Position numbers and translations under genes: made by a program. A stretch of DNA of 64,000 bases from the NCBI GenBank assembly GCA_900317055.1, contig ONFF01000014.1:1-64000 (forward strand), read 5' to 3'. Shown piece by piece: positions 50,214 through 62,229 of the stretch (positions are counted from its first letter, which is position 1; every line of letters begins with the position of its first letter). The notes below the pieces were generated by a model. It was not told where the DNA came from. It saw only the letters and a list, made by a program, of their open reading frames with translations, and made no database searches. The DNA comes from an uncultured Bacteroidales bacterium (GTDB taxonomy: Bacteria; Bacteroidota; Bacteroidia; Bacteroidales; F082).

Positions 50214-51470
50214 ATGAAGGAAGTACAGAGAACAGATTATATTCAATGGCTTGATCGGAAAAAAGGCAATGGGCTGGTAAAAATCATTACTGGTGTGCGT
50301 CGATGCGGCAAGTCGTATCTTTTGTTCACACTTTTCAAAAGGCATTTGGTTGAACAAGGAATAGGCGAAGATCATATCGTAGCCTTGGCTTTAGATGATT
50401 TTGCAAACAGACAATACCAAGATGCTGACACTTTGTACAACTATGTTAAGTCGAGAATCACGGACGATGACCAATATTATGTCTTGTTGGATGAGATTCA
50501 ACTTGTGACCGGTTTTGAGGCCGTGTTGAATGGCTTTTTGCATATCCCCAATATTGATATTTATGTAACGGGTAGTAACTCCAAGTTTCTTTCATCGGAT
50601 ATTGTGACCGAGTTTCGCGGGCGCGGTGACGAGATTAGGGTTTATCCGTTCAGTTTTGCCGAAGTGCATGAGATTTTTGAAGGAGACAAACATCGAGCAT
50701 GGTCTGCTTACTGCCGTTATGGAGGGATGCCCCTCGTATGGGCAGCCCAAACCAGCCAAGACAGAGAACAGTATCTAAAAAACCTATTTGAGCAAGTTTA
50801 CATTTCGGACATCATCAATCGTCATGACTTGCGCGGAAAATCCGAAATTGGTTACATTGTCAATATTCTTGCCTCATCAGTCGGTTCTCTGACAAACCCA
50901 TTGCGCTTGACCAATACATTCAAATCCGAATTGGGACTCAGCATTTCGCAAAACACTGTGAATTCGTACATCGAGTATCTTGTGGATTCGTTTCTAATCG
51001 GGAAAGTCAATCGATACGATGTCAAAGGACTGCGGTATATCTCTTCTCCTTTGAAATATTATTTTACCGATGTGGGCATGCGCAATGCAAGGCTGAATTT
51101 CCGCCAACAAGACGACTCTCATATCATGGAGAACATAATATACAATGAGTTGCTTCGCCGAAGATTCAGTGTCGATGTAGGTTGTGTTACAGTCAATGTA
51201 AAGGCAGAGAATGGAAAAATGGTGAGAAAACAGTTGGAGGTGGATTTTATTGCTAACAGCGGAGACAAACGATACTACATCCAGTCGGCATTCGATGTGC
51301 CTACTACAGAGAAGCGTGAACAAGAAGAACGCTCCCTTCTCAACATCAATGACTCTTTCAAGAAAATCATCGTTCAGCAGTCCATAGTCGAACCATGGCA
51401 TAGTCAACAGGGGGTGCTTTACATTGGAATTGAGGATTTTCTACTAAATGCCGAAAGTATGGATTTGTAA
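50214..51470 (+). CDS. AAA ATPase with DUF4143 domain
   Basis: 418 residues. The Walker A is ITGVRRCGKSYLL near residue 26; Walker B LLDEIQLVTGFEAVLNGFL near 95; TGSNSKFLSSD is sensor 1. The C-terminal DUF4143 domain includes YYFTDVGMRNARLNFRQQDD and a nuclease-like QLEVDFIAN stretch (DFIA). These ATPases are common in mobile and defence regions of Bacteroidales with no settled role. It has its own promoter; the next gene is 478 bases away. A related gene at 61622-62229 has lost about 220 residues. Confidence 0.88.
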   Translation: MKEVQRTDYIQWLDRKKGNGLVKIITGVRRCGKSYLLFTLFKRHLVEQGIGEDHIVALALDDFANRQYQDADTLYNYVKSRITDDDQYYVLLDEIQLVTGFEAVLNGFLHIPNIDIYVTGSNSKFLSSDIVTEFRGRGDEIRVYPFSFAEVHEIFEGDKHRAWSAYCRYGGMPLVWAAQTSQDREQYLKNLFEQVYISDIINRHDLRGKSEIGYIVNILASSVGSLTNPLRLTNTFKSELGLSISQNTVNSYIEYLVDSFLIGKVNRYDVKGLRYISSPLKYYFTDVGMRNARLNFRQQDDSHIMENIIYNELLRRRFSVDVGCVTVNVKAENGKMVRKQLEVDFIANSGDKRYYIQSAFDVPTTEKREQEERSLLNINDSFKKIIVQQSIVEPWHSQQGVLYIGIEDFLLNAESMDL

Positions 51471-51948
51471 AAGCCATTGCGCCGTCACCGAAATGACCAT
51501 TACGCGGAGGTGATTTTGGGGATGGTGAGGTGAAAAAGGATTATTGTTTTGATGTTATCTTTTTCATACTTTTTTCCATTTTTTTCCGCAAAAACAGTCA
51601 CCCCGAACCGCTCAATGCCAATTGTCTATAAGGTTTTGAACTTTTTTGTTCAACATTTTCCAAAGTTTGCCTATCTTTGCCCTCATCAACCCAAAAAGAA
51701 CATACCAACACAGAAGATAACTGATTATATAACATATTGATATAAAGCGTTTTTGCTTTTCAAGTATTTCCGAAATCTGGACAATTTCGAATAGTACCAC
51801 AGAAAGTAAAAACGTCCGCGGTGTAGCCGTGGACGTTCTGTTGGTACTATAGGCAGTCCAGAGCCTCGGAAATAGACAGAAGTCCGCGGCTCTTTTTAAT
51901 GTGTTCTTCTCAAATGAATTGCGAAAATGCAATTTGAGGAGGTACACA
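51471..51948 (+). promoter_or_regulatory. Long leader with competing hairpins before the methyltransferase gene
   Basis: No gene fits this 478-base gap. A TATCTTTG box lies at 51672-51679 with TTTG 23 bases upstream. About 130 bases further on, AACGTCCGCGG (51811-51821) pairs with CCGTGGACGTT (51827-51837). A second stem, AGAGCCTCGGA (51860-51870) with TCCGCGGCTCT (51883-51893), ends in a T-run and looks like a terminator. GTCCGCGG occurs in both stems, so the CCGTGGAC strand could pair with either, allowing attenuation. Confidence 0.5.
51860..51897 (+). terminator. Terminator-like stem in the leader of the methyltransferase operon
   Basis: AGAGCC-T-CGGA pairs with TCCG-C-GGCTCT over a 12-base loop, then TTTTT. 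It lies 52 bases before the start codon of the operon. Confidence 0.65.
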
Positions 51949-54633
51949 ATGGCCAAGAAACAAAACTTTTCTCATATAACCGCCCAAGAAGCACTTGAAA
52001 CAATTGCCGACCAACTGAATGCCGACAGTCTTCCTTACGAGCTTCTGCGAATCTTTTGCGGATATGGCGATGCATCGCTCCAGCGTGTGCGTGATGGACG
52101 CGACAACAAGTCCCGTGACCCCAAAACCATCCTCATTAAGGACAAGTTTGTTTATTGCCCTTTTAGCAAAGGCACCGAACCTTTGGCAACCATCCAAGCA
52201 CTCAGAAATATCGCTTCCATCACCCGTCACAATCCTCGTCTTTACATTACCTGCGACGGAACATCGCTTATTGCTTACGACCCAAAAGATGAGGATTTTT
52301 ACGAGGGCGCATTAGAGACCCTTTGGCGCGATTTTGAGTTTTTCAAGCCCCTTGCAGGCATCGAGAAATTCCGCAACTATGAAGAGGCCGAGGCTGATGT
52401 CAAAACCGCTGAACTCATGGCAAAGCTTTACGACGACATTTGCCGCTACAACGACTTTCGCGACCCAGGGGTTTCCCATTGCATCAACGTCTTCATGTCA
52501 CGACTTCTTTTTTGTTTTTTCGCCGAGGATACAGGCCTTTTCAAACAAGACCAGTTTACCAAAGCCATTGAAGACAACACCTCCATCGACGGCTCCGACC
52601 TCGCCGATTTTATTGACAGAATCTTTGTTATCCTTTCCACCAATGACAAGAATCTGCGCGATCAACAAACCAATAAAATCATCTCTGATTTCCCATATGT
52701 CAATGGTGGTTTGTTTAGTGAGCGTTATACCATTCCCCATCTTAGCCGTCGTGCTCGATTGCTGATGATTCAGTGCGGCAAATTCCAGTGGAGCGAAATC
52801 AACCCCGACATTTTCGGCTCAATGACACAAGCCATTGTATCACCCGAAGACCGTGCCGAGCTGGGCATCCACTACACTTCCGTGCCCAATATCATGAAGG
52901 TTATCCAACCTCTTTTCTTGGACGACCTCGCCGCCGAATACCTCCGCTGTCGCAACGATGCAAAAGCCCTCAACGCGTTACTGGTCAGAATGGGCAAGAT
53001 AAAGTTTTTCGATCCCGCTTGCGGCTCGGGCAACTTCCTCATCATTTCCTACAAGCGAGTGCGTGAGTTGGAGATTGAGATTTGGAAGCGCCTATTTGAG
53101 CTTCAAGCAACGGCCATCCCGTTCACCAACATTCAACTCACCCAGTTTTATGGCATCGAGATTGACGAATATGCTTGCAATACTGCAACGCTCTCTCTAT
53201 GGCTGGCAGAGCACCAGATGAACAACAAGTTCCGTGAGGAGTTGGGCACAGCCCCCAACCCGCTGCCCCTGCGTCCCAGCGGTCACATTGTCTGCGGAAA
53301 CGCCTGTACTATCGATTGGAACACCGTTTGTCCGCACACAAAGGATGAAGAAGTGTATGTGATGGGGAATCCACCGTATGTTGGAAGTAGAAATCAAAAT
53401 GATGTCCAGAAATCAGAAATGGACTTGGTCTTGAAGTACGTTCCATCATATCGCAGATTTGACTATATTGCAATCTGGTTCTACAAAGCGGCTCATTATA
53501 TTGAAAGCAATAATGCCCGTTCAGCTTTTGTCAGCACTAACTCGTTGTGTCAAGGTGAACAGTTATTATTTTGGAATAGCATATTAACGAATGGCATCGA
53601 AATGGGCTTTGCATACAAGACCTTTAAGTGGTCAAATAATGCCAAAAACAATGCAGGAGTATCGGTCATTATTATTTGCCTCCAAAACGCTGGAAAGAAT
53701 TCTCCCAAGCCTCGTATTTTCGATAATGGAACTTCTATCGTTGTTGACAAAATAGCACCAGATTTATCTGAAGGTGGTACTTATGTAACGGTTAATAAAG
53801 CTACAACTTCTTTATGTGGGTATCCTGAAATACGTCGAGGCAATATGCCAAATGACCAAGAGATTCTACGGCTTAGCCCTGACGAGAAAGAACAAATGAT
53901 TAAGTTGTATCCATCATCGGAAAAGTTTATTCGTATTCAAGTGGGTGCTGAAGAATTCTTGAAATCCATTGAACGTTATTGTCTATGGATTTCAAATGAC
54001 GATTATGATGAAGCGTATGCTATAGAGCCTATTCGAAAACGCATCGATGCAGTAAGAGAATATCGAATCAACAGTAAGGATAAGACACTTCATGAGCAGG
54101 CTAAACGCCCTCATCAGTTCAGAGAGTTCTTTGAATGCTCCGATAATAGCATCATCATTCCTATTGTTTCATCCGAACAACGCGAATATATCCCGATGGG
54201 ATTCGCTAAAAAAGGAGTAATTTTGAATAATTCTGTTCAAGTAGTATACGATGGAAACATTCTTGTGTTTGGTCTCCTTATGTCAAAGATGCATAATATT
54301 TGGGTGCGACAGACAGCAGGGAGATTAGAGTCCCGATTCCGCTATTCGGCATTTTTATGTTACAATGCATTTCCCTTCCCTCGATTAAATGAACAGCAAA
54401 AACAGAATGTTATTGAACTTGCAAAAGAGATTCTTCTCATTCGTGCCGAGCATACCGAAATGACTTTAGGAGAAATGTATAACCCAGATTCTTTCCCGCA
54501 AGATTTATATATCGCCCACCATGCCCTTGACTTGGCTGTGGAACGTTGCTACCGCGAGAAGCCCTTTGAATCCGACGAGGAACGCTTGGAATTCCTCTTC
54601 AAGCAGTACGTAAAACTAACAACCAATCATTGA
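51949..54633 (+). CDS. MmeI-like DNA adenine methyltransferase without an evident nuclease motif
   Basis: 894 residues from the ATG at 51949, preceded by GAGGAGG, a rare clear Shine-Dalgarno in this window. The methyltransferase core is FDPACGSGNFLIISYKRV (motif I) near residue 354, YGIEIDEYACNTATLSLWLA and VMGNPPYVGS (NPPY) near 473, giving N6-adenine specificity. The C-terminal RLESRFRYSAFLCYNAFPFP is typical of the MmeI TRD end. MmeI-type enzymes have an N-terminal D..EXK nuclease; here the corresponding stretch (residues 50-110) reads KDKFVYCPFSKGTEPLAT and I see no EXK. Nuclease activity may come from the neighbouring GIY-YIG protein. It overlaps nothing and is followed by the helicase at 3 bases. 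Confidence 0.85.
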   Translation: MAKKQNFSHITAQEALETIADQLNADSLPYELLRIFCGYGDASLQRVRDGRDNKSRDPKTILIKDKFVYCPFSKGTEPLATIQALRNIASITRHNPRLYITCDGTSLIAYDPKDEDFYEGALETLWRDFEFFKPLAGIEKFRNYEEAEADVKTAELMAKLYDDICRYNDFRDPGVSHCINVFMSRLLFCFFAEDTGLFKQDQFTKAIEDNTSIDGSDLADFIDRIFVILSTNDKNLRDQQTNKIISDFPYVNGGLFSERYTIPHLSRRARLLMIQCGKFQWSEINPDIFGSMTQAIVSPEDRAELGIHYTSVPNIMKVIQPLFLDDLAAEYLRCRNDAKALNALLVRMGKIKFFDPACGSGNFLIISYKRVRELEIEIWKRLFELQATAIPFTNIQLTQFYGIEIDEYACNTATLSLWLAEHQMNNKFREELGTAPNPLPLRPSGHIVCGNACTIDWNTVCPHTKDEEVYVMGNPPYVGSRNQNDVQKSEMDLVLKYVPSYRRFDYIAIWFYKAAHYIESNNARSAFVSTNSLCQGEQLLFWNSILTNGIEMGFAYKTFKWSNNAKNNAGVSVIIICLQNAGKNSPKPRIFDNGTSIVVDKIAPDLSEGGTYVTVNKATTSLCGYPEIRRGNMPNDQEILRLSPDEKEQMIKLYPSSEKFIRIQVGAEEFLKSIERYCLWISNDDYDEAYAIEPIRKRIDAVREYRINSKDKTLHEQAKRPHQFREFFECSDNSIIIPIVSSEQREYIPMGFAKKGVILNNSVQVVYDGNILVFGLLMSKMHNIWVRQTAGRLESRFRYSAFLCYNAFPFPRLNEQQKQNVIELAKEILLIRAEHTEMTLGEMYNPDSFPQDLYIAHHALDLAVERCYREKPFESDEERLEFLFKQYVKLTTNH

Positions 54634-54636
54634 CCT

Positions 54637-56577
54637 ATGAAGAATTTAGTCCAGATACAATACGGCCAAACAGGGGCGTCGTCAACCACCGATGCTCTCG
54701 GAATGCGCGAAATGCAGCGCATTGTCTATCAAGCGCGCAACCGCCAATATCTGCTTGTTAAGGCTCCGCCAGCGTCCGGCAAAAGCCGAGCTTTGATGTT
54801 TGTCGCCCTCGATAAGCTAAAGCATCAGGGCATCAAGCGTGTCATTGTGGCCGTTCCCGAAAAGACCATCGCTCGTTCCTTCAACGATACGGAACTCAAA
54901 CCATTCGGTTTCTTTGCAGACTGGAAAGTCAGCGATGGATACAATCTTTGCACTCCAGGTCTTAAGGAAAGTGGGCTGCGCCAAAAGTTCATCGACTTTC
55001 TCACAAGCAGCGCCACAGTCCTGGTCTGCACCCATTCCACGTTTCGCAATGCGCTGAAGGATTTGGACATCACGCTGCTGAATGACACGTTTATCGGCAT
55101 CGATGAATTTCATCACACTTCAGCCGATGAAATGAACAACTTAGGCACAGCCATCCGCACCATTATGGCGGGCAGCAACGCTCATATCATGGCAATGACT
55201 GGTTCTTATTTCCGTGGCGATGCCATTCCTGTGATGCGCCCCGAAGACGAAGCCAAGTTCCAGCCAACCATCACCTACAACTATTACCAGCAACTCAATG
55301 GCTACAAGCACTTGAAGAGCTTGGGTATAGGATACCAATTCTACCAAGGCAAATACATTTCCGCCTTGCCTGAAACGCTTGATACTACCAAAAAGACACT
55401 CATCCATATTCCCACACCCCAATCGCGTTCTGCCTACACCCGCAAATATGACCAAGTGGCCGACATCATTTCCTGCATCGGCACCATTGTAGGCGAAGAT
55501 GCAGAGCACTACATCAAAATGGTCAAAACGCCTGATGGCCGCATTCTCAAAGTAGGCGACCTTGTGGAAGACGAACCTCGTCAGCGCGATGCCTTGCAAG
55601 CTTATCTCAATAGAATGGATAGTGCCGATGCCCTTGATATTCTCATTGCTCTTGGCACTGCCAAAGAAGGTTTCGATTGGCAGTGGTGCGAGTGTTGCCT
55701 GACCATCGGCATCCGTGCATCCCTCACCGAAGTGGTTCAGATTATCGGACGTTGCACACGAGATTGTGAAGGCAAGACCCATGCCCAATTCACCAACCTC
55801 ATCCCTTGTCCCACAGCCGCTGAAGACGATGTAAAGACCGCAGTCAACGATATGCTAAAGGCAATCACCGCTTCACTCTTGATGGAGCAGGTAATGCAGC
55901 CCGAATGGAATTTCCGAACGGCACCTGAAAAAGATGACGAGGATGACCGTGATGATGGTGACAAGACTATCCGAGTGAAAGGTCTCAAAAAGACTACTGA
56001 CAGAGTGCAGTCCATCATCGAAAACGACCTCACCGAACTCAAAGCCACCCTCTATTCCAGCGACATCATCAAGCAAGCCCTTGCGGGAAGCCAAATTGGA
56101 GAAGTCATCACCCAGTCGCTCATTCCCAAGATTATTGAGGAACGCTATCCAGACCTAACCCCCGATGAGCAGGAACAACTGCGCCAACATGTGGTGCTGT
56201 CCACCACATTGCAAGGCGCAGAGGTTGTGACAAGGGATGATGGCAGCAAATTCCTGAAGGTTGCCAATCAATTCATTGACCTTGACAAACTCAGCATCAA
56301 CCTCATTGATAGCATCAACCCCTTCCAACGTGCATACGAGATTCTTTCCAAGTCACTTACTCCAGAAGTCCTTCGCACCATTCAAGATACCATCGATGCC
56401 CAGCGTGAGGATATGACTAAGGAGGAGGCTGTCATTCTTTACAAGAAATACTTGCCCAAATACAGGGAAGAACACGGTGGGGCATTGCCCACCGTACACG
56501 ACCCCGACCCAACAGCAAAGCGAATTGCTGTTGCTATCGCCTTCTTGCGTAAACTGAAACAGCAATCTTTATCATAG
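54637..56577 (+). CDS. Superfamily 2 helicase of the methyltransferase operon
   Basis: 646 residues. Motif I is VKAPPASGKSRALM near residue 43, motif Ia IVAVPEKTIARSF, motif II GIDEFHHTSADEM near 155 (DExH), motif III MAMTGSYFRGD, and motif VI QIIGRCTRDCEGK near 370. It is similar in build to DEAD/DEAH restriction-type helicases. The C-terminal 270 residues are helical with no named domain. It begins 3 bases after the methyltransferase and ends 9 bases before the GIY-YIG gene, so the three are one transcript. Likely role: DNA translocation for substrate tracking. Confidence 0.85.
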   Translation: MKNLVQIQYGQTGASSTTDALGMREMQRIVYQARNRQYLLVKAPPASGKSRALMFVALDKLKHQGIKRVIVAVPEKTIARSFNDTELKPFGFFADWKVSDGYNLCTPGLKESGLRQKFIDFLTSSATVLVCTHSTFRNALKDLDITLLNDTFIGIDEFHHTSADEMNNLGTAIRTIMAGSNAHIMAMTGSYFRGDAIPVMRPEDEAKFQPTITYNYYQQLNGYKHLKSLGIGYQFYQGKYISALPETLDTTKKTLIHIPTPQSRSAYTRKYDQVADIISCIGTIVGEDAEHYIKMVKTPDGRILKVGDLVEDEPRQRDALQAYLNRMDSADALDILIALGTAKEGFDWQWCECCLTIGIRASLTEVVQIIGRCTRDCEGKTHAQFTNLIPCPTAAEDDVKTAVNDMLKAITASLLMEQVMQPEWNFRTAPEKDDEDDRDDGDKTIRVKGLKKTTDRVQSIIENDLTELKATLYSSDIIKQALAGSQIGEVITQSLIPKIIEERYPDLTPDEQEQLRQHVVLSTTLQGAEVVTRDDGSKFLKVANQFIDLDKLSINLIDSINPFQRAYEILSKSLTPEVLRTIQDTIDAQREDMTKEEAVILYKKYLPKYREEHGGALPTVHDPDPTAKRIAVAIAFLRKLKQQSLS

Positions 56578-56586
56578 AAATAACCC

Positions 56587-57822
56587 ATGAGAGACTGGGA
56601 CGCAGAATTGCACGACATATTATCCGAACCATTTTTTGATGATGTAAAGCCCATCAAACGGCAATCTACATCATCAGACCGTCTCATAAACTCCTTCATT
56701 GAAGTGCTGGATTTCGTGGAGGCCGAAGGAAGGGAGCCGTCGGAAAATGCGGAAACACTCGAAGAGCTGAAGCTCTTCCGCACACTTCGTAGTATCCGTT
56801 CAGATGCGACCAAACGTCGAATTTGTCAGGGCGCTGACACAATCGGCCTTCTTTCCGAAGCCAACTTGCCCCAAGTCATAGAAGAGAGTTCTATCATTGA
56901 GTCCGTTCCTGTTGAATCCGTTGCCCCAGCGGAAGAAACGGAACTGCATGATGAGTTAGAGGATATTCTTAATGACCCCCTGTTCGATGATGTCACATCC
57001 GAAAGTAGTGGTTTGTTCGACGTTCCCGACTACATGCAAAAGAAGATGCAAGAACGGGCAGAAGCCGAGTCTATTGCAAAGCGTACTGAGTGTAAGGATT
57101 TTGCTGATTTTGAGGAAGGGTTTCAAGTCATCCACAAGAAACTGGATGATGGCCGATGCCGTCTTGTTCGCTTCAAGGAAGCTCACCTCGTTGAAGGCCG
57201 ATACTTTGTTGTAGGCAACATGCTGTTGTATCTTGTGCACCTTAACAAACACGCCAAGCGTCGCGATTCCCGCGGACGTGCCGACGACCGAACCCGATGC
57301 ATCTTTGAGAACGGCACCGAAAACAATGTCTATCAACAAACACTTGTCAAATCTCTCTACACAGAAGGTTATACAGTGGTTGACTATAGCGATGTCGAGC
57401 CTGATTATCTCGTTAAGCACTTCACGCCTGGCGAAAGCGATGTCGTCAGCGGATGGATATACATTCTCCGCTCACTTTCCACAGACCCTGAAATTGCTGG
57501 CATTAAAGACCTCTACAAGATAGGTTTTACTTGCCAGACCGTTGAGCAGCGCATAGCCAATGCCGAGAATGAATCCACCTATCTCTTTGCAAAAGTCCAG
57601 ATAATAAAGACCTACCAAGTGGCCAACATCAAAGCCTCCACATTTGAGAATCTGATACACAAATTGTTCGATTCGGTACAGCTTCAAGTGAATGCAGGTA
57701 TTGCCAAGCCTAAAGAGTGGTACATCGTACCATTCCCCATCATCGACCAAGCCATTCATTACATAATTGAGGGCAAACAAGTGGCATACGACCATAACAT
57801 ACAAGAACTAATCCTATTATAA
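56587..57822 (+). CDS. GIY-YIG (T5orf172-type) nuclease with duplicated short motif
   Basis: 411 residues. Residues about 280-375 form the nuclease: WIYILRSLSTDPEIAG, LYKIGFTCQTVEQRIANAEN, a catalytic-site glutamate in STFENLIHKLF and KEWYIV; this is the T5orf172 variant of GIY-YIG. The N-terminal 280 residues are acidic and mostly unstructured. Two copies of a short motif, ILSEPFFDDV (11-20) and ILNDPLFDDV (127-136), might dock onto the helicase or methyltransferase. Placed 9 bases after the helicase, it is the probable effector nuclease. Confidence 0.82.
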   Translation: MRDWDAELHDILSEPFFDDVKPIKRQSTSSDRLINSFIEVLDFVEAEGREPSENAETLEELKLFRTLRSIRSDATKRRICQGADTIGLLSEANLPQVIEESSIIESVPVESVAPAEETELHDELEDILNDPLFDDVTSESSGLFDVPDYMQKKMQERAEAESIAKRTECKDFADFEEGFQVIHKKLDDGRCRLVRFKEAHLVEGRYFVVGNMLLYLVHLNKHAKRRDSRGRADDRTRCIFENGTENNVYQQTLVKSLYTEGYTVVDYSDVEPDYLVKHFTPGESDVVSGWIYILRSLSTDPEIAGIKDLYKIGFTCQTVEQRIANAENESTYLFAKVQIIKTYQVANIKASTFENLIHKLFDSVQLQVNAGIAKPKEWYIVPFPIIDQAIHYIIEGKQVAYDHNIQELILL

Positions 57823-57827
57823 AGACC

Positions 57828-58649
57828 ATGACTGCAAACACCACCATACATCCAGATAGTCCTTTCCGTATTGGCACCTCGGGCAAATTCAAGTTGCTGA
57901 TAAAAAAAACAGAGAAATACTTTGATTACTTTGGATATGAGTTGTTAGATGCAGAAGGAAAGGAGTATAAGGCAACTGCAAAGACCTTGTATTTAGAAGG
58001 TCAATTGCTTCGTTGCATGGTGAATTTTAAAGTGGAGAAAGCAAAACTGGTAGTTGAAAGTGTTGCAGTTTGTAGTAAGCAGGATTTGGCAACGCCAGTT
58101 CCTGTTGAGAAGAAACCAAAGGCCGAGCCTAAACCTAATTCTTCACCAAAACATAAAGCAGTATCTGAACCAAAGAAAAAAGAAAAAACAAAACCTACAT
58201 CTCAGCCTAAAGGAAACGATATTGTTATTGAATTGGGTAATCCTCGAAAAAGGCGGTTGTCAGGGAATTATATTCTTTGTGTTAGAAGGGCTGAACAACA
58301 TAACGTTGATTATTCTTATCAGTTAGAAGATGCGAACGGGAAAAAATACCCATTTCGATCAACACGTTTATTGAAAACCGGTTATGCTTATTTCTTTTAT
58401 GTTGATGTCTCCGTGACGGCAGTAAGCGGTTTGAAAATTGAAGTAATAAAAGTAGTAAGCAGTTATAAGAAAAAAGCAACCAAAAGCGAAAAGCAAGAAA
58501 AACAAAAGCGAACTAAAAGAAAACGCCACTCAAGAAGAGGTGGAGCAACAGGAAAGGTTTTCTATAGGGAAGCTACCAATTATAGACAACAAAATTGGGA
58601 GCCCACCATATATAAAGGTGGTGGTCATATAATATACACTCGTATGTAA
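57828..58649 (+). CDS. Unrecognised protein with duplicated beta domain and basic tail
   Basis: 273 residues and I do not recognise a family. Residues about 13-82 (SGKFKLLIKKTEKYFDYFGY to VVESVAVCS) and about 136-210 (SGNYILCVRRAEQHNVDYSY to IEVIKVVSS) are similar to each other: each has G-x-[FY]-x-L-x-x-[KR]-[KR]-x-E, a [YF]-x-[YF]-[EQ]-L-[LE]-D-A-[EN]-G-K-[EK]-Y centre. A Lys/Pro-rich linker separates them and the C-terminus is strongly basic (KRTKRKRHSRRGG). The domains look like OB or SH3 barrels and the tail like a nucleic-acid-binding tail. It starts 5 bases after the nuclease, so it belongs to that operon. Confidence 0.75.
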   Translation: MTANTTIHPDSPFRIGTSGKFKLLIKKTEKYFDYFGYELLDAEGKEYKATAKTLYLEGQLLRCMVNFKVEKAKLVVESVAVCSKQDLATPVPVEKKPKAEPKPNSSPKHKAVSEPKKKEKTKPTSQPKGNDIVIELGNPRKRRLSGNYILCVRRAEQHNVDYSYQLEDANGKKYPFRSTRLLKTGYAYFFYVDVSVTAVSGLKIEVIKVVSSYKKKATKSEKQEKQKRTKRKRHSRRGGATGKVFYREATNYRQQNWEPTIYKGGGHIIYTRM

Positions 58650-58685: not shown

Positions 58686-58910
58686 ATGAACGCACAAGGA
58701 AGAAAAGAGATTGTGAAGTACATCGCTTCGCTTGAAGAAATCAAAAGCAAACTCGAATCCATGAAGGATGAAGAGGAAGACAAATTCGACAACATGCCCG
58801 AAGGCTTGCAGGAAAGCGAACGCGGCGAAGCCATGCAGGAAGCCATCGAGCAACTGGAAACGGCTTGCGACAATCTGGATGAAGCAATCAGCGCGTTACA
58901 GGAAATCTAA
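58686..58910 (+). CDS. Small helical protein, phage/mobile-element type
   Basis: 74 residues, nearly all helical and acidic (YIASLEEIKSKLESMKDEEE, AIEQLETACDNLDEAISALQ). Proteins like this occur in Bacteroidales phages and conjugative elements, as far as I recall, with no known function. A Lys/Glu heptad pattern suggests coiled coil. It is 36 bases after the basic-tail protein, so it may be the end of the same transcript. Confidence 0.65.
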   Translation: MNAQGRKEIVKYIASLEEIKSKLESMKDEEEDKFDNMPEGLQESERGEAMQEAIEQLETACDNLDEAISALQEI

Positions 58911-59298: not shown

Positions 59299-59562
59299 AT
59301 GGAAAGAATTAACAAATTGAAAGATATTCTTCAAAGGAAAACCAAATTGAATAATAGCCGATATCTCGAAGTAAATATCAATGAGATTTCAAATGAAATA
59401 GGGTGTAGTATGAAAGAAGTGTTGTATATGCTTAATGAACTATGTTTACAAAAAGACATCAAAGCGGTCAAACAAGTCGGTTTAGGTAACGATTATATGC
59501 TTACTGTTTTGGAAAAGTCTACTATATGGAGTGATTGGCATAAAAAAATAGAAGAAATGTAA
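59299..59562 (+). CDS. Small winged-helix-like protein of the TIR/HNH module
   Basis: 87 residues. LEVNINEISNEIGCSMKEVL followed by YMLNELCLQKDIKAVK and a strand pair looks like a winged helix-turn-helix, although the family is not recognised. It reads plus, 19 bases before the TIR gene, and leads the likely operon, which suggests an autoregulator or a partner of the TIR protein. Confidence 0.55.
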   Translation: MERINKLKDILQRKTKLNNSRYLEVNINEISNEIGCSMKEVLYMLNELCLQKDIKAVKQVGLGNDYMLTVLEKSTIWSDWHKKIEEM

Positions 59563-59581
59563 TAACCAATAATGTATTTGA

Positions 59582-60604
59582 ATGTTTCCTATGACTAAAA
59601 TCTTTACATCATACACTAATACTGTTCGCAGAATGCTAAAAGGATATAATACCGATTTGTATAACATATTTTGCGATCAGAACATCGAAGAAACCTGGGT
59701 TAACCATGATAATTGGAATGGGGGCATTGACTTCTATAATATTGTCATTAGGGTTCCTGTTGATTTTTTTGAAACCCTTCGTAAAAGAAATGCTGTTGAA
59801 GAAACTGAGAAGGTGTTAAAGGAATATTATGATGATGCGATGCGCGGCGAAGGAGAATCGATTCAAATTAGTAATGTAATACTGAAACCTACGGCTGAAG
59901 ACATTTCTACTTTTGGGGATAATTTGGATGACTCTATGTGGAAACACGGACAATTCCGTTTATTCATAAGTCATCTTAGTTCAAATAAGCAATCCGCATC
60001 ATATCTTAAGTCTTGCTTGTCTAATTACGGAATAGATTGTTTTGTCGCGCATGAAGATATTACTCCATCAAAGGAATGGGAGATAGAGATAGAAAAAGCA
60101 TTGTTTACGATGGATGCTTTGTGTGCAATATTGACTCGCGATTTTATCAATAGCGAATGGTGTGACCAAGAGGTCGGAATCGCTTTAGGTCAAAAAAAAT
60201 TGGTGATTTCTGTAAACAAAGGAGCGGTGCCCTATGGGTTTATTGGAAAATATCAAGCATTAAAAAGTGCAAGCACAGCAAATGGTATGGCTTTAGAAAT
60301 CTGGAAAACCATATCTACAAACGACAGGACAAAAGCTGTTTATTGGAAAAAGTTAGTCTCTCTGGTTTTGGATGCATCGGATTCATCTGAAGCAATGCAA
60401 TTTATAGAAATCCTTAAGAAATGTGAGAATGTTGATAAGTATTTCATAGAATACTTGCATGAGAACATAGGTTCAAATAAGGTTTTGAATTCTCAAGATG
60501 TGATAGAATCTGTAAATCTTGTTTTTCAGAAATACGGATTGATGCCTATAGTGCTTTCTTCTCACTTAACCATTCAAAATAATGAAGATGAGTTGCCATT
60601 TTAA
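59582..60604 (+). CDS. TIR-domain protein, candidate defence effector
   Basis: 340 residues (an ATG at 59591 is an alternative start). Residues about 125-235 form a bacterial TIR domain: FRLFISHLSSNKQSASYLKS, IDCFVAHEDITPSKEWEIEI (acidic block around W166 where a catalytic glutamate would lie), ALCAILTRDFINSEWCDQEV and KKLVISVNKGAVPYGFIGKY. Bacterial TIR domains usually hydrolyse NAD+ in abortive infection. The N-terminal 120 residues (YNTDLYNIFCDQNIEETWVN and others) are not recognised and may sense the signal. The C-terminal 105 residues are helical. An HNH nuclease gene follows 17 bases later. Confidence 0.85.
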   Translation: MFPMTKIFTSYTNTVRRMLKGYNTDLYNIFCDQNIEETWVNHDNWNGGIDFYNIVIRVPVDFFETLRKRNAVEETEKVLKEYYDDAMRGEGESIQISNVILKPTAEDISTFGDNLDDSMWKHGQFRLFISHLSSNKQSASYLKSCLSNYGIDCFVAHEDITPSKEWEIEIEKALFTMDALCAILTRDFINSEWCDQEVGIALGQKKLVISVNKGAVPYGFIGKYQALKSASTANGMALEIWKTISTNDRTKAVYWKKLVSLVLDASDSSEAMQFIEILKKCENVDKYFIEYLHENIGSNKVLNSQDVIESVNLVFQKYGLMPIVLSSHLTIQNNEDELPF

Positions 60605-60621
60605 AATTGCGCTTCAACAAC

Positions 60622-61383
60622 ATGTATATTCATGATGGTCAATGCATTTGGTGTGGAAGGAAAGCCCCAACAGCAACATTTAGTACGATTCCACATATTC
60701 TCCCCAAATCATTGGGTGGAACCGAAACATGTGTTGATGTTTGCGATGATTGTAACCATTATTTCGGGACTCCAGCGAAAGGACTTCCTTCTATTGATGT
60801 TGTATTAAGAGAGATTTTTGAATCTTACCGTCTCTTTGGTACAAATTATTATGAAGAACACAATCCACCAAAAAAGTTCACTTTCTTTCACTATAATCAC
60901 GAAAAGAAAAGACTTAAATTGAAAGACCCGTTTAGGGAGGCCACTATCACATCTCAATTCAAAAGAGGACTATTCGAACTCTTTCTTCAAAAATATCATG
61001 CGGCAACATTTGATGGTAATGATCAAAGATGGGATTGGGTTCGGTCTTATGCTCGATATGGTACGGAAATAATTCCTATAGAGCCTCACGTTTACTATGC
61101 TTTCAACAATATTGTTTTTCACCCTAGTGATGAAAATATGAATATTGTTCCCATGTCGGATAAGTTAATTGAAGACGCTTTGAAATATGGCGTTTTTCAT
61201 TTTTTTTTAATGGGTCAGAACTTCTATCTAGAGGTGTTGCCGCATTTATTTCAGCAATATGGCAAAGAGTATTTGCAAAACGAAGCAAAAACAATGCTTT
61301 TACATGCTAAAGGCGATGAGTGTATTTTCGAATTCACTAGAATAAGACAAATTGACCCATTTATGACAAGATTTAGAGAGTGA
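60622..61383 (+). CDS. HNH endonuclease, partner of the TIR gene
   Basis: 253 residues from the ATG at 60622 (a TTG at 60607 also works). The zinc-HNH unit is at the N-terminus: C8-x2-C11, then IPHILPKSLGG with H25, and VCDDCNHYFG with C41-x2-C44, N45 and H46. The remaining 200 residues are not recognised. Typical of HNH_5-like nucleases. Pairing of a TIR and an HNH enzyme fits a defence module with sensing and DNA cleavage, but which is the effector is unknown. Confidence 0.8.
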   Translation: MYIHDGQCIWCGRKAPTATFSTIPHILPKSLGGTETCVDVCDDCNHYFGTPAKGLPSIDVVLREIFESYRLFGTNYYEEHNPPKKFTFFHYNHEKKRLKLKDPFREATITSQFKRGLFELFLQKYHAATFDGNDQRWDWVRSYARYGTEIIPIEPHVYYAFNNIVFHPSDENMNIVPMSDKLIEDALKYGVFHFFLMGQNFYLEVLPHLFQQYGKEYLQNEAKTMLLHAKGDECIFEFTRIRQIDPFMTRFRE

Positions 61384-61621: not shown

Positions 61622-62229
61622 ATGGTGGAAATTAAAAGAGACAGATATCTTCAACAGCTGATAGAAAGCCGTCAGAACGGCCTCGTCAAAGTGGTTACGG
61701 GAATCCGCAGGTGTGGCAAATCGTATCTCTTGGCTATCTGTTGGAATCATTCCTTGTAAACAAGGCCATTCGCTATGATATCAAAGGCAAAAAGTATATC
61801 AACACGCTTTCAAAGTATTATTTTTCTGACATAGGTTTGAGAAATGCCATTCTCAATATGCGCCAACAAGAGGAATCGCATATCATGGAGAATATCATCT
61901 ACAACGAACTGATTACCCGGGGTTACAACGTGGATGTCGGGATGGTAGAGATAAAAAAGCAGGACAAGGATGGGAAATGGATTCGTGTCCAGCTTGAAGT
62001 CGATTTTATTGCCAACCTCGGAAGCAAAAAGTATTATGTGCAATCGGCTTTGTCAATCCCTGATAGAGAAAAGGAAATACAAGAATCCCGTTCGCTAACA
62101 AACATCAATGATTCATTCAAGAAGGTTATTGTTGTCAAAGAGCACATCATGCCGCGCAGAAACGAAGATGGGATACTCACTATTGGGCTGTTCGATTTTC
62201 TCCTCAAGGAGGATAGTTTAGACATGTAA
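61622..62229 (+). pseudogene. AAA/DUF4143 ATPase with a large internal deletion
   Basis: The first frame from ATG 61622 encodes the Walker A region (GLVKVVTGIRRCGKSYLL) and stops at about 61760. A second frame, two bases off, resumes at GYLLESFLVNKAIRYDIKGK and runs to the stop at 62229, matching the C-terminal DUF4143 part of the intact gene at 50214. About 220 residues are missing. At the joint TATCTCTTGG and TATCTGTTGG are near-repeats, as expected of a deletion between short repeats. It cannot make a working ATPase. Confidence 0.85.

Follow-up and report, generated by a model that had tools for sequence, protein, structure and literature searches.

The window analysed here, a stretch of 64,000 nucleotides (positions 1–64,000, forward strand, of contig ONFF01000014.1 in assembly GCA_900317055.1 of an uncultured Bacteroidales bacterium, F082), contains a four-gene operon preceded by a structured leader RNA (Table 1). 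The four plus-strand open reading frames (ORFs) are packed closely, with gaps of 3, 9 and 5 bases. An earlier note on this DNA had described them as close-set genes that include an MmeI-like methyltransferase, a helicase and a GIY-YIG nuclease, a description borne out by the ORFs and their domain matches. Protein 1 matches all five MmeI domains, MmeI_N among them, as well as the PADLOC Type IIG model PDLC03598 over residues 17–893; protein 2 matches DEAD and ResIII above cut-offs; and the C-terminal end of protein 3 is a T5orf172/MUG113 GIY-YIG domain. No family at cut-off was matched by protein 4 in Pfam/PADLOC-type scans. GC content is 44, 50 and 46% in the three core genes, 37% in gene 4 and 36% in the stretch behind it. 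By domain content and gene order, genes 1–3 are almost certainly a DnmA(YeeA)–YeeB–YeeC module. The operon is thus a Bacteroidales copy of a known module, with gene 4 as a local add-on; the unexpected result is the leader, 50–200 bases upstream.

Table 1. Features of the operon and its leader in the window
Feature	Position	Strand	Length	Basis or remark
TAnnTTTG box TATCTTTG, putative operon promoter	51672–51679	+		sequence
Structured leader RNA	51744–51897	+		model R1 match, 96.6 bits (window copy is in the R1 training set); fold; pairing tests
A strand, UAUUUCCGA AA UCUGGAC, long-range partner of 51856–51874	51765–51782	+		duplex energies
V strand, GUCCAGA GCC UCGGAAAUA	51856–51874	+		sequence, fold, pairing tests
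Terminator-like hairpin	5' arm 51860–51865 (within V strand); 3' arm 51888–51893; U run to 51897	+		
Gene 1, DnmA/YeeA-like MmeI-family N6-adenine methyltransferase, N-terminal nuclease residues lost	51949–54633	+	894 aa	domain matches, residue comparison
Gene 2, YeeB-like superfamily 2 (SF2) helicase	54637–56577	+	646 aa	domain matches, alignment of 13
Gene 3, YeeC-like protein, C-terminal T5orf172 GIY-YIG domain at about 289–392	56587–57822	+	411 aa	domain matches, alignment of 13
Gene 4, two domain copies of about 75 aa and a Lys-rich linker; local add-on	57828–58649	+	273 aa	
Small ORF	58686–58910	+	74 aa	92% identical in congener G454, there too behind gene 4

Protein 1 aligns with the solved structure of MmeI (5hr4) at 555.8 bits, the alignment starting at residue 83. 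The MmeI nuclease residues D70, E80 and K82 are present in 24/24, 24/24 and 24/24 stand-alone homologues, and are kept in 1, 0 and 3 of 68 proteins of the YeeA kind, respectively. The window protein carries T, C and F at these positions, as expected from the note's reading of a methyltransferase without a nuclease motif. Structure prediction of the N-terminus, which the note had suggested as a check for a hidden nuclease, returned a possibly restriction-endonuclease-like fold; a hidden nuclease was nonetheless rejected, as all three catalytic residues are lost even if the fold is kept. With the metal-binding and catalytic residues gone, the N-terminal domain of YeeA probably has a docking or structural role.

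The catalytic motifs of the other two proteins are intact. In an alignment of 13 helicases, GKSR (48–51) and DEFHH (156–160) are invariant and QIIGRxTRD (368–376) is nearly so; in an alignment of 13 GIY-YIG proteins, G289, Y292, K311, G313, R322, E354, H358, E377 and W378 are invariant. A profile of the 13 helicases (A1) confirmed at least 559 relatives among 590 pattern matches in genome contigs, the best 80 of which were kept for the study of gene order that the note had proposed. The order held in these 80: in 80/80 helicase loci a same-strand GIY-YIG match starts no more than 420 bases downstream, and a YeeA-like match lies upstream in 71/80, some of these being cut by the contig start, two of them (L083 and L109) to fragments. 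In eight of the remaining nine loci the contig extends no further than 2.4 kb upstream, and one of these eight (L076) has a methyltransferase match downstream. The trio is also annotated in the same order in all six plasmid records examined, among 263 that match, from Arthrobacter, Lactiplantibacillus, Providencia, Klebsiella, Niallia and Acinetobacter. YeeC is annotated as two ORFs in two of the six, with a 288-base ORF followed by the GIY-YIG part in the Providencia (L019, 8936–10141) and Acinetobacter (L022, 8930–10136) plasmids; in L022 the methyltransferase is split in two as well. Two YeeC homologues (L023, 6969–8495; L024, 5286–6509) are extended at the C-terminus by a domain that resembles ASCH on visual inspection. 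Within the phylum, a helicase match at E ≤ 0.001 was found in 14 of 395 genomes (own included), nine of the matches being long, and in none of the 35 congeners searched; the system is therefore patchy. The operon's 3' end is also present in a further congener, G454, at the edge of a contig.

The assignment to the known module rests on several shared properties: an MmeI-family methyltransferase devoid of the PD-(D/E)XK residues, a helicase gene and then a nuclease gene downstream on the same strand, and a third protein with a C-terminal T5orf172/GIY-YIG domain. The MUG113 family was also matched in the control genome of Bacillus subtilis, the species in which yeeC was described. A genome-wide look-up with PF13455 found a second MUG113-domain protein in the own genome (G000:C14:98069–98278) and missed window protein 3, which hmmscan matches. 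The note had presented the operon as an undescribed system and knew of no named system with this content. That reading is wrong: the module, and the note's own argument for it, are already in print (PMC7261158, PMC9973331). The B. subtilis dnmA–yeeB–yeeC genes encode an MmeI-like methyltransferase, a helicase and a T5orf172 protein in an order common to many species, and yeeB and yeeC homologues in defence islands are credited to Makarova et al. (PMC9973331). B. subtilis DnmA performs N6-methyladenine methylation at GACGAG (PMC7261158), and such single-motif methylation is the known activity of the family (PMC9973331, PMC7261158). MmeI homologues lacking the endonuclease motif, with yeeB- and yeeC-like genes alongside, were noted by Morgan et al. 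in 2009, to whom PMC7261158 also traces the suggestion of a 'Type I-like' restriction-modification (R-M) system.

The window operon resembles the B. subtilis module in combining an MmeI-family methyltransferase that lacks the endonuclease motif with an SF2 helicase and a T5orf172/GIY-YIG protein, encoded in the same order on the same strand; it differs in its Bacteroidales host, in gene 4 and the small ORF, and in the structured leader RNA. Restriction was negative for the B. subtilis copy, whereas the window copy is known from sequence alone. Vibrio crassostreae has the same three genes, a likeness drawn from the description in PMC9973331 rather than from sequence. With the Type IIL enzyme MmeI (5hr4; PMC4833311) the window protein shares the methyltransferase, helical spacer, target recognition and C-terminal domains; unlike MmeI it lacks the D70/E80/K82 site, and the motor and nuclease would be separate gene products.

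Gene 4 does not belong to this core. A search of 394 other genomes sampled from the phylum gave no relative of it at E ≤ 0.001, and the 80 helicase loci gave no match, so the note's accessory protein is not a regular part of the system. The note's proposal of a split system stands as to a nuclease-less methyltransferase with a helicase and a separate, motif-intact GIY-YIG protein, and falls as to gene 4. Gene 4 is still a true neighbour in congener G454 (L122, C153), where the end of yeeC, 98% identical over 49 amino acids, is followed by gene 4 and then by the 74-amino-acid ORF. Among 149 relatives (own included), G454 gave the one strong match (5e-43), eight others at E ≤ 1 being weak (0.04–0.65). 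The two gene 4 products are 65% identical over the first ~124 amino acids, and their C-terminal halves are unrelated. The two domain copies of the window protein match each other with a score of 66; shuffled sequences average 24, and none of 2000 reaches the real score. A single-sequence structure model was useless (mean confidence score, pLDDT, of 33).

Many relatives do carry extra genes in a different place, between the methyltransferase and the helicase. This interchangeable slot spans at least 250 bases in 49 of the 77 loci having both genes, and 48 of the 49 contain an ORF of at least 70 amino acids. Scanning of 66 of the 82 slot ORFs gave Schlafen-AlbA/recG-C, RhuM, Fic/Doc, AAA_13, YhcG and other families, many of them matching PADLOC candidate defence models; the AAA_13 genes we take to be RloC-like. 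By eye, toxin–antitoxin genes also occur in the slot (loci L033–L112 and L024–L029), and in B. ihuae (L023, 50–4998), where the methyltransferase is absent, SIR2, HerA and Schlafen genes precede the helicase gene. Type I R-M loci can likewise hold embedded accessory genes, such as prrC, and the relatives with Schlafen, RhuM, Fic/Doc or AAA_13 genes between modification and helicase genes are similar in this respect; the window differs, its slot being empty (3 bases).

The leader comprises, in order, a small hairpin, the A strand, hairpin 1, the V strand and a terminator-like hairpin with a U run. The region 51780–51965 folds at −71.5 kcal/mol (z −7.5; 0 of 200 shuffles as low), and z is below −5 in 13 of the 68 YeeA loci, the window counted, that offer 200 bases or more of upstream sequence (30 shuffles each); the 13 have their layout in common, not their sequence. 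Column covariation on the covariance-model alignment is weak because the variable arms are out of register, and pairing was therefore judged by duplex energies. The window A strand pairs at −24.0 kcal/mol with its own V and at −5.4 to −8.9 kcal/mol with the V of five other leaders. For six leaders with hand-picked arms, the own A:V energies are −23.5 to −32.2 kcal/mol and the non-cognate ones −5 to −16, barring the pair L057/L061, which is one sequence type; with fixed windows in 14 leaders, the own V ranks first for 12 and second for 2. Covariance model R1 does not contain the A:V helix, and among 37 copies found with it (30 from a second family, that of genome G453, four of them also in the training set, and 7 from the own genome) the own V is best in 35, with a mean of −29.1 versus −14.7. 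The long-range A:V helix is kept by compensatory change.

Several observations temper this picture. For two of the six leaders (L064 and L049), the best of 500 V shuffles paired as strongly as the real V. In 29 copies from the genus, many of which look alike, the own V is best in only 15 and ranks 2–4 in 14 (mean −27.0 versus −16.4). In the window the terminator's 5' arm overlaps V, so that A:V helix and terminator compete there; in some other copies the two abut side by side, and a strict either-or switch is not implied. A switch helix between the 3' arms of hairpin 1 and the terminator, which RNAalifold proposes on a MAFFT alignment in place of A:V, may also form, but its pairing is not cognate-specific. 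A leader peptide as sensor was discarded, an ATG-initiated ORF being visible by eye in Prevotella-type copies only.

At least four T residues fall within the last 25 bases in 31 of the 37 copies. In 30 of 37 other leader copies a TAnnTTTG sequence, which we take to be the Bacteroidota promoter consensus, lies no more than 220 bases ahead of the leader, a raw count without chance control. The leader, a folded 5' RNA with a terminator-like hairpin at its end, resembles leaders of the attenuator and riboswitch type; unlike those, it has no Rfam family at gathering score. In window positions 51400–52000 the search gave a single hit, SNORD116, below threshold and on the opposite strand, and in seven leader loci (112,655 bases) it gave 0 matches at gathering score. 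No description of the leader was found in the literature searched, which included a search by terms of PMC8040213 (main text). The leader is apparently an undescribed RNA family (loci: window 51744–51897; L172, 1734–1891; L223–L229; L193–L222; L230–L258).

Turning to the distribution of the leader, at least nine matches at E ≤ 0.01 came from the own genome, in which 150 of 796 first-look candidates were scored. Each of the six best (at least 52.9 bits) stands before an R-M, methylase or restriction-helicase gene; the ranking may favour R-M leaders, since 13 of the 20 leaders used to train R1 come from YeeA genes. The six targets are YeeA; a Type ISP enzyme with ZorA-, ZorB- and ZorC-like genes behind it; a helicase that PADLOC matches best to its HKD+Snf2 model; a DNA methylase, behind which a second one is visible by eye; a protein that fuses N6_Mtase, Methylase_S and HSDR_N; and a ResIII protein that no PADLOC model matches. 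In the second of these (L172, 1673–10693, contig C18), the leader, the 1636-amino-acid Type ISP R-M enzyme and the Zorya genes appear to form one operon. Three weaker matches (47.6, 36.8 and 29.2 bits) lie before the genes of two short proteins, neither matched by Pfam, and of a repeat protein. Not all N6_Mtase ORFs in the own genome have the leader, which precedes 3 of 7.

Across the genus, 90 of 99 genomes, counting the own one, carry the leader at E ≤ 1e-5. The best locus from each other genome gave 28 first genes; all of L230–L244 with an ORF and a further chosen set, 20 in total and thus non-random, were scanned, and 11 encode methylases, HSDR_N or PLD/SNF2/ResIII helicases, the other nine being different or matchless. 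By eye, four of the eight unscanned genes (L245, L249, L252, L254) look like R-M types found among the scanned ones; the other four do not. In the second family the leader was found in at least 101 of 151 genomes at E ≤ 0.01 under strict filters, and at least eight of 29 first genes are of the methylase or restriction kind (L198, L199, L204, L205, L211, L213, L221 and L222, of which L198 and L199 are near copies); others encode dockerin, leucine-rich, SPFH and acyltransferase proteins. These first-gene counts are raw, without a background rate of R-M genes. A leader specific to YeeABC was rejected, as it also precedes other genes in the own genome and the second family. We consider a regulatory role for the leader likely, and rather favour the more specific reading that it is a cis-acting attenuator RNA of Bacteroidales, located preferentially before R-M, DNA methylase and restriction-helicase operons, that switches the operon.

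For the operon itself, sequence features argue with good probability for a Type I-like split R-M operon active in defence. Three observations count against this. The B. subtilis module had no effect on the three phages tested, and the authors judged it a relic (PMC9973331); it did not restrict plasmid transformation (PMC7261158); and B. ihuae (L043) has the helicase and nuclease with no YeeA-like match within 8 kb on either side. The two experimental results would fit a window operon that is likewise a relic, its methyltransferase a working orphan enzyme with a regulatory function, as proposed for B. subtilis DnmA, and its helicase and nuclease inactive. All three window ORFs are open, however, the helicase and nuclease catalytic residues are conserved, and deletion of dnmA or yeeB in V. 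crassostreae is reported to increase sensitivity to some phages (PMC9973331), so that a relic seems unlikely here.

Membership in a BREX, DISARM or Dnd/Pbe-type system is very improbable. YeeA weakly matches the PglX and DrmMI models and the helicase weakly matches PbeA, but the PglX match reaches 30.2 bits against a cut-off of 500 (BREX-1 PglX), and the DrmMI match (DISARM class 1) is partial at 93 bits. Among the matches listed, which for protein 1 cover 25 of 34 PADLOC families, there was no PglZ or Dnd-core match in the nine ORFs scanned (four being the operon itself) and no DrmA/B/C/D in the other eight. An ordinary Type IIL enzyme with a hidden N-terminal nuclease and unrelated neighbours, to which the MmeI_N match and the possible fold might point, is hardly credible: it would need the catalytic D, E and K that protein 1 lacks, and the neighbouring genes keep their order in other phyla.

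In the split R-M system that we favour, YeeA would recognize an asymmetric site through its MmeI-type target recognition domain and methylate an adenine within it, thereby marking host DNA. At an unmethylated foreign site, YeeA is proposed to hold the DNA, presumably in a complex with its partners; translocation would fall to the YeeB helicase and cutting to the YeeC GIY-YIG nuclease. The leader probably gates expression, the A:V helix competing with or abutting the terminator before the methyltransferase gene, and would set the amount of system made. More broadly, the leader (~155–180 nt plus a variable 5' domain) may act as an RNA switch shared by defence systems that target DNA. Its parts are a conserved small hairpin, the A:V helix, hypervariable yet self-complementary, a hairpin arm with the conserved sequence CGUGGRC, and the terminator. 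Release could occur through phage takeover, nucleotide or S-adenosylmethionine state, or an antitermination protein.

The surroundings of the operon include possible island edges: an AAA_14/DUF4143 ATPase is intact at 50214–51470, and an internally deleted relative (residues 1–45 and 255–418, 51–57% identical to the intact copy) lies at 61622–62226, with defence genes between. Downstream, at 59299–61383, an AT-rich trio of a small ORF, a TIR-domain protein (340 amino acids) and an HNH_5 protein (258 amino acids) is perhaps another defence cassette.

With this operon, a widespread module gains a Bacteroidales member whose catalytic residues are conserved. Since the B. subtilis copy of the module was judged defunct, the window operon is a good test case for DNA restriction by YeeABC. 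The leader matters more than the operon: if the proposed role is correct, unrelated restriction systems of gut-type bacteria would be under common RNA control. Such control of R-M could help explain how these bacteria tolerate incoming new R-M genes and why restriction blocks genetic work in them.

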